NCBI GenBank assembly: GCA_016763335.1 | Contig: JAESUD010000296.1 | Location: 1-15,808, forward strand | Direction of reading: 5' to 3' | DNA: 15,808 nucleotides | DNA from: Emcibacteraceae bacterium | GTDB taxonomy: Bacteria; Pseudomonadota; Alphaproteobacteria; Sphingomonadales; Emcibacteraceae | Shown: one piece after another, positions 993-6,624 of the stretch | Layout: each line of letters opens with the position of its first letter | Numbering within the stretch: the first letter of the stretch is position 1 | Position numbers and translations under genes: made by a program | The notes under the pieces: generated by a model | What the model saw: the letters and a program-made list of their open reading frames with translations, nothing else | Databases searched by the model: none | What the model was told of the DNA's origin: nothing

Positions 993-2195
993 TTATTTTG
1001 TAAAGCGCGCTAATACGGCAGCACCCACCAGGTCACCCCAAACATTTAATGTTGTTCTCATTCGGTCCAAAAACCAATCAACGCCAAGAATTAAACCGAA
1101 ACCTTCAGCAGGAATGCCGACAATGGAAAATAACATTAATGTCATGATATGTCCCCCTTGCGGAATTCCCGCAGATCCGATTGATGCCAAAGATGTTGTT
1201 AAAGCAATTAACACATAGTCGGAAAACACCATATCAATACCGTAAACCTGCGCAAGGAAAATTGTCGCAACCGATTGATAAACGGCGGTACCGTTCATAT
1301 TAATGGTGCTTCCAAGCGGAATAACAAAGCGGACAGGACTTTTAGGTAATCCGTGGTCTGTGGCGCATTCAATTGATAATGGTACCGTTGCCGAAGAGCT
1401 TGACGTGCTAAGGGCCGTTAAAAGTGCCGGCAACACATCACGGAGATATGTTATTCCCCTTCCCGCAATAAATATCAAAACAATGAATAGTAAAACTGAA
1501 TGAATAACAAGCCCGCTTAGTACAATTACTAGATAACCGCCGACAGCAGCAAATGTTTCGATCACGCCTTCTTTACCGCCAGCCTCGGCAATGGGAGTAG
1601 CGACAAGGGCAAAAATACCAAAAGGTGATAAATACATGATCCAGCCAACAATCACCATCATGATGCCGTTAAGGCTTTCAAAAAATGAACTTACAGCCTT
1701 GCCTTTTTCACCCGTCACCGTCAGGGCAGCACCAAAGATTATTGAAAATATTATGAGCTGTAATAAATCCATATTGGCGGCTGATGCGACAATATTTGGT
1801 GATATAAGTCCGAGAAGTATTTCACCAATGCTTGTTGTTCCGGCATTTGCAGCAATTGACACATCGCTCGGCGTTAAGTGAAAATCCCCGCCCGGAACGG
1901 CTATTTCAGCAAGTGACATACCAATCATGGCAGCAATTAATGTCGTCACTATGAAATAAAGAAACGTAATACCGCCCGGTTTACCAAGTTTTCTAACATC
2001 GCCTAATGATGCAACACCACTTATAATAGCGGCGACAATAAGCGGCACGACAACCATTTTAAGCGCATTAAGAAATAATGTTCCCATCCAGGAAAACATC
2101 AGCGCGTCTTCCCCCATATACCACCCAGCGGCAACCCCAAGAATGACGGAAACAATAATTGAATAGAGTAAAAGCATCGTATGACGCTTTGACAT
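993..2195 (-). CDS. Dicarboxylate/amino acid:cation symporter (DAACS, SLC1 family), copy 1
   Basis: This 400-residue inner-membrane transporter has the glutamate/aspartate symporter fold. A Ser-rich HP1 hairpin motif, STSSSSAT, lies at residues 263-270. A TM7 motif, NMNGT, lies at 299-303. An HP2 hairpin, IGSAGIPQGG, lies at 339-348. TM8 carries Asp373, Asp377, Arg380, Thr381 and Asn384. The last four correspond to Asp394, Arg397, Thr398 and Asn401 of the archaeal homologue GltPh, where the Arg binds the substrate side-chain carboxylate, so an acidic amino acid or C4-dicarboxylate is likely. TM7 has Asn301 where GltPh has Asp312, a cation-site residue. A TTG 12 bases upstream could extend the frame, but I chose the ATG at 2195 because GGAG sits six bases before it. 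The gene follows a second DAACS gene and precedes a secreted hydrolase gene. Confidence 0.93.
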   Translation of the reverse strand: MSKRHTMLLLYSIIVSVILGVAAGWYMGEDALMFSWMGTLFLNALKMVVVPLIVAAIISGVASLGDVRKLGKPGGITFLYFIVTTLIAAMIGMSLAEIAVPGGDFHLTPSDVSIAANAGTTSIGEILLGLISPNIVASAANMDLLQLIIFSIIFGAALTVTGEKGKAVSSFFESLNGIMMVIVGWIMYLSPFGIFALVATPIAEAGGKEGVIETFAAVGGYLVIVLSGLVIHSVLLFIVLIFIAGRGITYLRDVLPALLTALSTSSSSATVPLSIECATDHGLPKSPVRFVIPLGSTINMNGTAVYQSVATIFLAQVYGIDMVFSDYVLIALTTSLASIGSAGIPQGGHIMTLMLFSIVGIPAEGFGLILGVDWFLDRMRTTLNVWGDLVGAAVLARFTK

Positions 2196-2215
2196 ATAAT
2201 TCTCCAATTTTGTAA

Positions 2216-2254
2216 AAATAAAGGCCTAGCGATAAATTCACCAAGCCTTTATTT
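2216..2254 (-). terminator. Intrinsic terminator or attenuator between the two symporter genes
   Basis: Two 14-base arms (2216-2229 and 2241-2254) pair fully with two G-U wobbles around an 11-base loop. On the minus strand the stem ends in a T-rich run (TTTATTTTT), as in a Rho-independent terminator. It begins 10 bases after the stop of the upstream symporter gene. The T-run ends only a few bases before the ribosome site of the downstream gene. The A-rich opposite flank means it could also work in the other direction. Confidence 0.8.
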
Positions 2255-2264
2255 ATTTGATAAG

Positions 2265-3509
2265 TTAGATATTTGGATCTCTTCTGAACTCGTCGAGATC
2301 AATCTCGCCTTCCCATTTTGCCACGGCTGTACAAACAGCAAGGTCACCTGTGACGTTGACAGTTGTTCTTAACATATCAAGCGGGCGGTCAAACGGAAGT
2401 AAGAAACCAACGACAATGGCCGTCTGTTCCGCAGAAACGCCAATGACGCCGAGAACACCAGCCAGCAAAAATAAACTTGCAGATGGAACAGCGGCAGTAC
2501 CGATTGATGCAATCGTTGTTGTCATTGCAATTAAACCATAATCCATTAGGGAAAGCTCAATGCCAAAAGATTGTGCCGTAAATACAGCAACAATTCCCAC
2601 ATAAATTGCTGTGCCGTCCATGTTAATTGTCGCACCAAGCGGGATAACGGATGATGCTACGGATGACTTGATCCCAAGGTTATCTTCTGCAACGGCAATA
2701 GTAACCGGCATTGTTGCACTGCTGGATGATGTTGAAAAAGCAACCAATTGGGCATCGATGATATCTTTGAAGAAACGAATGGCGGGTAAACGCAATACTA
2801 CCTGAATGAGTGCGCCATGCATCAATATTACATGAAGTACACAGCCCAGCAATATTGTTCCAGCTAGTGGAACGACATCAAGTAATGCAGCCGCACCCTT
2901 TGTGCCTGCAACAGAAGCAATAAGAGCAAACACACCAAAAGGAGCCACTTCCATAATCATATGTGTGATTTTAAGAATTACTTCCGAAGCACTGTCCATT
3001 AATTTTGCAACGGGCTTTGCTTTTTCGCCAGCCGTCATAATACCAATGCCAAATATGAGTGCAAAGAAAATAACCGCTAATATATCGCCGTCGGCCAGTG
3101 CCGCTATAGGATTGGCAGGTATAATATTCATCATACGCTCACCAAGTGGCATTGCTGCTTCCAAAGTTAAGGACTCGCCACCTGTTATAGAGACGCCAAC
3201 ACCGGGTTGGAAAATTGCAGCAAGGGCTAAACCAATTGTGATGGCTACGGCTGTCGTACCAAGATAAAGCGCCATTGTTTTAACACCAATAGAACCCAGC
3301 TTTTTAGGGCTGCCCATTGCGACAACACCGGAAACGAGCGTGACAAAAATCAAAGGAACCACAATCATGCGGATGAGTTTAATAAAAACATCACCAATCC
3401 ATTTAATATTTGTTGCCGATTCCCCGAATATTGACCCAACGATGACACCTAGCACAAGCGCTAGAACAATCCGTTTCCAGAGCTTGATTTCGAACCATTT
3501 TTTAATCAT
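2265..3509 (-). CDS. Dicarboxylate/amino acid:cation symporter (DAACS, SLC1 family), copy 2
   Basis: This 414-residue transporter is a clear but divergent relative of its downstream neighbour. It has STSSSSAT at residues 259-266 (HP1), the complete NMDGT cation motif at 296-300 (TM7), IGTAAVPSAS at 336-345 (HP2), and TM8 residues Asp374, Asp378, Arg381, Thr382 and Asn385. The Arg/Asp pair in TM8 is the GltPh-type signature for acidic substrates (aspartate, glutamate or C4-dicarboxylates). Cation-coupled import across the inner membrane is the family role. Which cation and which substrate cannot be fixed from sequence. The short charged tail (GEIDLDEFRRDPNI) is cytoplasmic in the family. The ATG at 3509 has GGAG six bases upstream. 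It is the first gene of the leftward cluster, divergent from trpG, and is followed by a strong terminator hairpin. Confidence 0.93.
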   Translation of the reverse strand: MIKKWFEIKLWKRIVLALVLGVIVGSIFGESATNIKWIGDVFIKLIRMIVVPLIFVTLVSGVVAMGSPKKLGSIGVKTMALYLGTTAVAITIGLALAAIFQPGVGVSITGGESLTLEAAMPLGERMMNIIPANPIAALADGDILAVIFFALIFGIGIMTAGEKAKPVAKLMDSASEVILKITHMIMEVAPFGVFALIASVAGTKGAAALLDVVPLAGTILLGCVLHVILMHGALIQVVLRLPAIRFFKDIIDAQLVAFSTSSSSATMPVTIAVAEDNLGIKSSVASSVIPLGATINMDGTAIYVGIVAVFTAQSFGIELSLMDYGLIAMTTTIASIGTAAVPSASLFLLAGVLGVIGVSAEQTAIVVGFLLPFDRPLDMLRTTVNVTGDLAVCTAVAKWEGEIDLDEFRRDPNI

Positions 3510-3674: not shown

Positions 3675-4265
3675 ATGTTTATTTTGATCGATAATTACGA
3701 CAGTTATACCTATAATTTATACCATTACCTTGGTGAAATCGGCGCAGATGTTGACGTTTTTCGAAACAATGAAATTTCTGTTGATGAATTAAAATCAAAA
3801 AAACCAAAAGGAATTATTCTTTCCCCCGGCCCCTGTACACCGGATGATGCCGGTATTTGCATGGATATTATTGAACAACTTGGTGAAAACGTCCCAATTT
3901 TAGGGGTCTGCCTTGGCCATCAATCAATTGGTCAAGTATATGGCGGCAAGGTTATTCGCGCACCTTATTTAATGCATGGCAAAGTAAGCAAAATGTTTCA
4001 TAAAGACCGCACTTTATTTAATGGCTTTAAAAGCCCCTTTATAGCCACACGGTATCATTCACTTATTGTTGACCGCGAAAGCCTGCCAGACGTGCTGGAA
4101 ATTACCGCAGAAACAGAAGACGGTATTATTATGGGTCTTAGTCATAAACACTTTCCAGTTCACGGGGTTCAGTTCCACCCAGAAAGTATAGCATCAGAAC
4201 ATGGACATGATTTATTGAAAAATTTTATTACCATCGCCGATGAATTTAACAGTGAGGCCGCATGA
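3675..4265 (+). CDS. trpG: Anthranilate synthase component II (glutamine amidotransferase)
   Basis: This 196-residue class I glutamine amidotransferase supplies ammonia from glutamine to the TrpE subunit for anthranilate formation, the first step of tryptophan synthesis. It is cytosolic. The triad is visible: Cys79 in GVCLGHQ (77-83), and His168 and Glu170 in VQFHPES. The oxyanion-loop segment ILSPGPCTP lies at 48-56, and RYHSLIV at 126-132 is typical of TrpG/PabA. The length is normal. TrpG and PabA cannot be separated by motif alone and one protein may serve both anthranilate and folate synthesis. The call as TrpG comes from the 4-base ATGA overlap with trpD. No trpE lies in the window. An AGG about 11 bases before the ATG is a loosely spaced ribosome site. 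Confidence 0.93.
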   Translation: MFILIDNYDSYTYNLYHYLGEIGADVDVFRNNEISVDELKSKKPKGIILSPGPCTPDDAGICMDIIEQLGENVPILGVCLGHQSIGQVYGGKVIRAPYLMHGKVSKMFHKDRTLFNGFKSPFIATRYHSLIVDRESLPDVLEITAETEDGIIMGLSHKHFPVHGVQFHPESIASEHGHDLLKNFITIADEFNSEAA

Positions 4266-5317
4266 TGGCATTTGATTTTAAAAAATTAATAAATTATCTC
4301 GCTCAAGGAAACATATTAAGTCGTGATATGTCGCGTAATGCTTTCGAATATATGATGAATGGTGATGCTACCGGTCCACAGATTGGTGCATTTCTTATGG
4401 GGTTGCGAATACGTGGAGAACGTGTCGAAGAAATAATTGGTGCAGTAGAGGCTATGCGCAATAAAGCTTTGACTATAAAAGCCCCAGAAGGTGCGGTTGA
4501 TACTTGCGGAACAGGCGGCGATCAATCTGGTAGCTATAATATTTCCACTGCTGCGGCAATAGTATTGGCATCGTGTGGTGTACCAGTAGCGAAACATGGA
4601 AACCGTGCAGCATCCTCAAAAACTGGAAGTGCTGACGTTCTTGAAACGTTAGGTATCAATATTGATGCAGATATGGAAATAGTTAAGCGCTGTCTGTATG
4701 AACTTGGAATAAGTTTTTTAATGGCCACCCGGCATCATAGTGCCGCGCGCCATGTGGGTCCAGCCCGTGCAGCTCTCGGAACACAAACAATCTTTAATAT
4801 TATTGGGCCACTGTCAAATCCAGCAGAAACGAAATATCAAGTGATAGGTGTTTTTGATAAAAAATGGAATGTACCAATGGCTGAAGTTCTTGGAACCTTA
4901 GGTAGTGAACATGTATGGGTAGTGACTGGATCAGATGGTCTTGATGAAATAACAATTACTGGCGAAACCCATGTGGCAGAATTTAAAGACGGGAAAATTA
5001 ATGAATTTACCGTCTCACCGGAAGACGCCGGATTAAAGCGCGCGACAATGAAAGAAATTGAAGGCGGTGACGCGGAGTATAATGCGGCCGCAATATGGGA
5101 TATTCTTGGTAGTAAAAAGAATGCCTACCGGGATATTGTCCTGCTTAACACATCCGCCGCATTAATTGTTAGTGGTAATGCGGCGGATTTAAAAGACGGT
5201 GCAAGAATTGCGGCACAGGCAATTGATAGCGGCAAAGCCAAGAAAACCCTTGAAAACTGGATCGAGATGAGCAACCAAGAGCCGCCCGTTATTGAAGAAG
5301 ACAAAGAAGATGAGTAA
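4262..5317 (+). CDS. trpD: Anthranilate phosphoribosyltransferase
   Basis: This enzyme transfers the phosphoribosyl group from PRPP to anthranilate, the second committed step of tryptophan synthesis. The 351-residue length fits the family. An all-alpha N-terminal region (1-75) is followed by the PRPP loop CGTGGDQSGSYNIST (82-96), then KHGNRAASSKTGSADVLE (111-128). The segment RHHSAARHVGPARAALGTQ (157-175) holds the anthranilate-binding region, and FNIIGPLSNPA (178-188) follows. The second codon is also ATG, so the start is ambiguous by one residue. I use the first ATG, which overlaps the trpG stop as ATGA, a sign of translational coupling. The C-terminus is strongly acidic (EEDKEDE), and its last codons overlap the trpC start by 8 bases. 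Confidence 0.95.
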   Translation: MMAFDFKKLINYLAQGNILSRDMSRNAFEYMMNGDATGPQIGAFLMGLRIRGERVEEIIGAVEAMRNKALTIKAPEGAVDTCGTGGDQSGSYNISTAAAIVLASCGVPVAKHGNRAASSKTGSADVLETLGINIDADMEIVKRCLYELGISFLMATRHHSAARHVGPARAALGTQTIFNIIGPLSNPAETKYQVIGVFDKKWNVPMAEVLGTLGSEHVWVVTGSDGLDEITITGETHVAEFKDGKINEFTVSPEDAGLKRATMKEIEGGDAEYNAAAIWDILGSKKNAYRDIVLLNTSAALIVSGNAADLKDGARIAAQAIDSGKAKKTLENWIEMSNQEPPVIEEDKEDE

Positions 5318-6107
5318 TATTTTAAGTAAAATTGCTGCGACAACACGCGACCATGTGGCAAAATGTAAATTAACAAGACCCCTTTTTGAAATTGAAAAAG
5401 CCGCCAAGGCCGCCTCTCCTGTTCGTGGGTTTCATAAAAACCTTCTAACCGCCGAGAAAGAAGGACGTTACGGACTTATATCTGAAATTAAAAAAGCAAG
5501 CCCCAGCAAAGGATAAATCAGAGAAAATTTTAACCCTAAGGAGCTTGCAAAAGCTTATGAGGATGGCGGTGCGAGCTGCCTTAGTGTGCTAACGGATGTG
5601 CCATATTTTATGGGCGCAGATCAATTTTTGATTGAAGCACGCACCGCAACGTCGCTTCCTGCACTACGCAAGGACTTTATGATTGACCCATATCAGATTA
5701 TTGAAGCCCGGTCCCTAGGCGCCGATTGCATATTGCTTATTATGGCAATGATTGATGATGATTTAGCGGCGGAACTTGAACAAACAGCCATTGAATATAA
5801 ACTTGATGTATTAGTTGAAGTTCATGATGCTAATGAATTGGAACGAGCGCATAAATTGTCATCATCGCTTTTTGGTATTAATAACAGAAATCTTAAAACA
5901 TTTGAAGTTTCACTTGATACTACTGCCCAGCTTTCAAAACTAGCCGATAAAGACCGCACATTGGTGAGTGAGAGCGGTTTATTTAGCCATGATGATTTGA
6001 AAATGATAAAAGAAACATGCGGCATTAACAGTTTTCTTATTGGTGAAGCATTGATGCGCCAAGATGATGTCAAATTGGCAACCAGAAAACTGCTTTTTAA
6101 TGATTAG
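5310..6107 (+). pseudogene. trpC: Indole-3-glycerol phosphate synthase interrupted by an in-frame TAA
   Basis: An intact TrpC would cyclise CdRP to indole-3-glycerol phosphate. The frame from the ATG at 5310 is 265 codons, a normal TrpC length, but codon 69 is TAA. The first piece ends at EIKKASPSKG and carries catalytic Lys61 (Lys53 of the Sulfolobus enzyme). In the same frame after the stop come [44 protein letters not shown] and SESG, which hold the remaining catalytic and phosphate-binding positions. No other stop or frameshift is present. The family usually reads SPSKG-Leu-Ile-Arg here, so one TTA-to-TAA change explains the break. The GTG at 5586 is too far inside the barrel to be a sensible restart. 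The ATG overlaps the trpD stop by 8 bases. A real mutation, read-through and a base-calling error are all possible. Confidence 0.9.
5514..5516 (+). other. Premature TAA codon within trpC
   Basis: The triplet follows SPSKG and precedes IRENF in a continuous frame. TrpC homologues commonly have Leu here, and TTA is one base away. TAA is a genuine terminator elsewhere in this window (trpD, moaC, lexA, the histidine kinase gene and others), so a changed genetic code is not the explanation. Confidence 0.95.
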
Positions 6108-6147: not shown

Positions 6148-6624
6148 ATGTCAAATTTAACCCATCTAGATAATCAGGGCCGTGCCAGCATGGTTGATGT
6201 ATCCGAAAAACCAGAAACCAAACGCATTGCAACCGCAAAAGGCCGCATATACATGACGGCGGAGACCCTTGCGTTAATCGATAAAGGCGGCGTTAAAAAG
6301 GGCGATGTATATACGGTTGCCCGGTTGGCCGGCATTATGGCTGCCAAGAAAACTGCTGATCTGATACCGCTTTGCCATCCCTTACCCATTCAGAATGTTC
6401 AGGTTGATCTCGTCAGTAATACTGAGGGTAACTACGTTGACATTACGGCAACAGCCAGTCTTTATGGTCGGACCGGCATTGAAATGGAGGCATTAGCCGC
6501 GGTTTCTGTAGCAGCGCTTACCATTTATGACATGTGTAAAGCCGTTGATAAAGCGATGAGGATCAGCGATATACGCCTCACCCATAAATCCGGCGGCAAA
6601 TCAGGAACTTATGAAGCGGAATAA
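6148..6624 (+). CDS. moaC: Cyclic pyranopterin monophosphate synthase
   Basis: MoaC acts after MoaA in the first stage of molybdenum cofactor synthesis and forms cyclic pyranopterin monophosphate in the cytosol. At 158 residues it is the usual size. Residues known as functional in the E. coli protein fall at the same numbers here: Lys51, His77 in LIPLCHPL (72-79), Glu112 in GRTGIEME, and Asp128 and Lys131 in YDMCK. The C-terminal KSGGKSG (147-153) is also typical. AGGAAAG lies just upstream of the ATG. The gene begins 40 bases after the trpC stop and ends 5 bases before moeA, so moaC and moeA are one transcription unit, possibly continuing from trpGDC. Confidence 0.97.

Follow-up and report, generated by a model that had tools for sequence, protein, structure and literature searches.

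Here we ask what a single in-frame stop codon in the tryptophan biosynthesis gene trpC means for a Pseudemcibacter-like alphaproteobacterium. The gene lies in the window, the whole 15,808-nucleotide contig C234 of a draft assembly of 2,885,374 bases in 371 contigs that is 90.6% complete. A preliminary description had left three options, a very recent event, a stop that is read through, or a wrong base call; our analysis slightly favours a recent loss over a consensus error, with the wrong consensus almost as likely and readthrough poorly supported.

The trpC gene, encoding indole-3-glycerol phosphate synthase (IGPS) and recognised from profile matches and its translation, occupies positions 5310..6107 of the plus strand. 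Its frame runs from an ATG at 5310 to 6104, corresponds to a TrpC of 265 residues and is terminated by a TAG at 6105-6107, but it is not continuous, being crossed by one TAA at 5514-5516 (residue 69). When this stop is read as X, the Pfam IGPS profile is matched over 254 of its 254 positions with 308.9 bits, and the NCBIfam TrpC equivalog model scores 399.4 bits against a cut-off of 348, which bears out the earlier view that the gene is whole apart from a single nonsense codon. The essential residues of the Sulfolobus enzyme, given as Lys53, Lys110, Glu159 and Asn180 in the available portion of the source (PMC7681013), map through an alignment via the P. aeruginosa enzyme to K61, K121, E170 and N191. 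The catalytic lysine, K61, lies in the 68-residue piece upstream of the stop (5310..5513, plus strand; translation and alignment), and K121, E170 and N191 lie downstream, in agreement with the preliminary placement of Lys61 before the TAA and the other active-site segments after it. Among the open reading frames, the first restart at an ATG, GTG or TTG is a GTG at 5586, 23 codons past the stop, which opens a frame of 173 amino acids (5586..6107, plus strand) without K61. Since the essential residues are thus split between the pieces, neither piece would be expected to be active.

A search of the draft genome's contigs for a second trpC, as had been proposed, returned one IGPS match, that of the window, and no other copy in the contigs searched. 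An IGPS match was found in 52 of 59 other genomes, with no internal stop in the matched stretch in any of the 52. The proposed comparison with relatives gave a sense codon at the position of the TAA in every genome aligned (Leu in 32, Val in one); the alignment comprised 37 rows from 33 other genomes, four of them represented twice, out of the 52 with a match. Within the same genus, trpC was found in nine of 12 other genomes, none of the nine with a stop, and contig ends divide the gene of G003. At 91% identity, P0002 is the closest protein known, and it is intact. In being single-copy with intact orthologues, the interrupted trpC resembles a unitary pseudogene formed by nonsense mutation. Loss of trpC in the sister genomes G004, G005 and G011 was considered and not accepted, because trpD is absent from them too (G004 has a weak match below the cut-off), and moaC is likewise absent from G004 and G011 and cut by a contig end in G005. 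In the distant relative G037, the IGPS match at G037:C1:1781929-1782695 lies in two overlapping frames and resembles a frameshift. A viral scan for trpC relatives recovered four loci at 51-53% identity.

The genes around trpC are open. On the plus strand, trpG (3675..4265) and trpD (4262..5317), both assigned from open reading frames and profile matches, precede it, trpD overlapping its start, and moaC (6148..6624; open reading frame and comparison with relatives) is the next gene 3' of it. The order trpG-trpD-trpC-moaC-moeA-lexA is shared with G012 and G009, and the TrpC of Pseudemcibacter aquimaris (P0017), of the Emcibacter/Kordiimonas type, has the same length and 75% identity; the internal TAA at residue 69 sets the present gene apart from that type. 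Marine trp operons divided into an EGDC and an FBA part have been described from the Sargasso Sea (PMC2395257), and as far as the accessible text of that source goes the arrangement here is similar in having moaC after trpC in the window, pyrF before trpF on contig C16 and accD-folC after trpA on contig C303 (pyrF, accD and folC being named by eye), and differs in that trpE does not adjoin trpG and lexA is third after trpC, not adjacent to it. Two SDF-family symporters stand in tandem at 993-3509, adjoining trpG. Transporters of this family or an S15-family hydrolase also lie by trpG in eight relatives with intact trpC (the hydrolase in G012 and G007, both kinds in G009, the transporter in G001, G010, G008, G006 and G002), six of the eight being covered by about 1.5 kb on each side of trpD. 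As one or both gene kinds adjoin trpG in genomes with an intact gene too, the suggestion that the neighbouring transporters and peptidase-like hydrolase fit a scavenging lifestyle was dropped.

The remaining trp genes widen the question. Contig C16 (L129; 3017 bases) carries trpF-trpB-trpA in this order, and both outer genes are interrupted, trpF by one in-frame TAA at 633-635 and trpA by one at 2313-2315, while trpB between them is open and itself ends in TAA. With trpE, trpG, trpD and trpB open, three of the seven trp genes (trpC, trpF and trpA), on two contigs, thus carry one stop each, and judged from these sequences the whole pathway is affected, rather than trpC alone. The statement that there is no second lesion accordingly holds for trpC itself, whose conserved columns show no excess of changes, and fails for the pathway. 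Both trpF and trpA were matched in all 12 other genomes of the genus and were free of stops in each, the trpA of G003 and the trpF of G007 being represented by two pieces on different contigs. Among 11 aligned relatives, the codon at the trpF stop specifies Lys in nine, Val in one and Ile in one, and that at the trpA stop Leu in all 11. A few weak TrpB-like matches with stops were seen in G002, G003 and G008. An octamer, ATAAATCA, is common to the trpC stop (window 5513-5520) and the trpF stop (L129 632-639), probably because Ile comes next in both.

Signs of decay beyond the stops are scarce. There are no surplus changes at conserved columns of trpC, trpF and trpA apart from the stops, which indicates that the lesions are recent or not real. 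Counting the stop, TrpC shows 13 derived changes and its nearest relative eight, a comparison that gives no clear sign of relaxed selection. TrpF carries L50H, and TrpA carries D31G, eight residues before its stop, at a position where 98% of 47 homologues have Asp. Odd residues are not over-represented in trpB, trpF and trpA on C16, and since these genes are otherwise well kept, the contig does not appear densely erroneous. A local patch of poor bases is conceivable, given that two of the three stops lie on this one 3-kb contig and that the TrpA stop is close to D31G.

To what extent do such stops occur elsewhere in the draft genome? We surveyed 121 of the 371 contigs (906 kb), of which C16, C208, C270 and C303 came in through trp-family matches, 19 through tRNA or TrpB-like matches and the others by number, using a codon-usage scan that recovers only 51-71% of planted stops and leaves frameshifts outside the survey. 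The scan returned 67 candidates, in 32 of which the first start codon lay at least six codons on or was absent, and in 35 sooner. These comprise trpC, trpF and trpA, eight that were sent to Pfam and 56 judged by eye to be gene junctions or chance frames. The eight proved to be five single genes crossed by a stop, one NusB-ThiL junction and two undecided cases (a relaxase and one on L191). The five are ppx (L212 1569), an amidase gene (L287 7478), mltA (L319 5076), sucB (L324 648, minus strand) and a Sel1-repeat gene (L340 11174, plus strand), all identified by Pfam. At the junction (L288 near 13663, minus strand), 16 codons without ATG, GTG or TTG follow the nusB stop, and the ThiL-like sequence seems to begin immediately.

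Similar lesions therefore occur elsewhere in the draft genome, though more rarely per kb than in the trp genes. The rate of non-trp stops in the sampled contigs is 0.008-0.016 per kb, and the probability of at least two stops by chance among the other six trp genes is P = 0.001-0.004, the highest figure including the two undecided cases; this test was run once trpC was known to be interrupted, with trpC excluded from the count, and its independence is weakened by two of the stops lying on one contig, C16. With only five other clear cases confirmed in the 121 contigs, two further stops among six trp genes are unlikely to be due to chance. Homology searches of the draft genome for two large families, TonB receptors and short-chain dehydrogenases, gave 35 matches and no stop, compared with two stopped genes among the six other trp genes (P = 0.018). 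Among the TonB-receptor matches of G006, one of 12 contained a TAA.

The assembly also bears marks of mixed origin. Comparison of contig ends in the 121 contigs revealed nine overlapping pairs of 135-479 bases at 92-97% identity (L129/L280, L159/L321, L166/L194, L168/L296, L191/L328, L193/L332, L284/L324, L303/L315 and L337/L338), and a tenth overlap at 81% identity that is internal in one partner, as if several strains had been binned together. C16 and C303 have 417 bases of trpA in common, ungapped and at 92.8% identity, and 20 of the 30 differences fall at third codon positions, so this stretch represents true strain variation. In protein searches, stop-free near-copies were found of TrpF (99%) and TrpA (97%), each with a contig of 2868 bases, which we take to be the same contig and which probably belongs to this assembly or to a sister one. 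The trp genes may thus exist side by side in an intact and a broken form, and C16 and the window contig C234 may come from different strains.

Three rival accounts were weighed. One is that TAA was created in functional genes by wrong bases at low coverage or by chimeras of strain variants in a multi-strain bin, and we regard this as a serious contender whose chances fall somewhat short of even. The contig-end overlaps and the two trpA versions, the five stops in other conserved genes and the near-identical intact TrpF and TrpA all speak for it, as does, more weakly, the spectrum of changes: no trp stop of the three could have arisen by a single transition from a codon present in relatives, and an unbiased, error-like process, computed to yield a transition in 15% of cases, fits this. 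The excess of stops among trp genes, the ordinary frequency of odd residues on C16 and the predominance of third-position differences between C16 and C303 argue against it.

Readthrough, whether through leaky termination or with the help of a suppressor tRNA, would keep the gene working; in its favour are the conservation of frame and residues past the trpC stop and the shared context, a TAA followed by A at all three trp stops. We nonetheless consider it very unlikely. No tRNA with a stop anticodon was present among the 25 ARAGORN genes found at 26 tRNA matches, an incomplete set, the trpC stop recurs in no genome of the 33 others aligned, the relatives' residues differ between the three stops (mostly Leu, Lys and Leu), and ordinary genes of this genome, such as trpB, terminate with TAA. 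UAA is, moreover, usually the tightest of the stop codons. A new meaning of TAA was rejected on the same two observations, the differing residues of relatives and the continued use of TAA at gene ends. Even less credible is a TrpC made in two parts which then join to form a functional barrel. All four essential residues are present across the two pieces, and the overlapping frames of G037 may offer a parallel, yet the stretch between stop and restart would be missing, no such split was seen in the other 51 matched relatives besides G003, cut by contig ends, and the partial matches of G031 and G051, and trpF and trpA have stops of their own.

Our preferred reading, to which we assign a probability of about 0.5 on the genomic data at hand, is that one Pseudemcibacter-like strain very recently lost tryptophan synthesis. 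It draws support from the trp stops exceeding the background of the draft genome and from the other genomes of the genus being stop-free in trpC, trpF and trpA where they have these genes; the mixture of strains, the interruption of further core genes (sucB, for example) and the intact near-copies call for caution. The claim that the cell would probably be a tryptophan auxotroph is strengthened by the interruption of trpF and trpA as well as trpC, and weakened by the strain mixture, the scattered stops and the intact near-copies, which make a wrong consensus or a minority allele plausible. If the loss is real, the ribosome would halt at each TAA of trpC, trpF and trpA, the steps from phosphoribosylanthranilate to indole would be lost, and the cell would depend on tryptophan uptake or on the conversion of indole to tryptophan by TrpB alone. 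A more specific and tentative version, which we think doubtful as a whole, is that the pathway is being lost at present, a strain with fresh stops in trpC, trpF and trpA and an indole-using trpB living beside a near-identical intact strain that feeds it.

Tryptophan auxotrophy through mutations in trpA or trpB is known from ocular Chlamydia trachomatis, where, as here, small changes break a gene while the pathway is still recognisable; the present case concerns an alphaproteobacterium with stops in three genes of a draft assembly. More generally, mutational loss of amino-acid synthesis is well known, and such loss is selected quickly once the product is supplied, according to the portion of PMC5096674 available. 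We found no report of these interrupted trp genes in the literature, which is no proof of absence. Should the stops be artefacts, they would warn against inferring auxotrophy from a draft genome before its reads have been inspected. If they are real, a single sample from the environment may contain this costly pathway both intact and broken in near-identical strains, and the order and pace of amino-acid pathway loss, and any supply of the product by neighbours, could be tracked directly.
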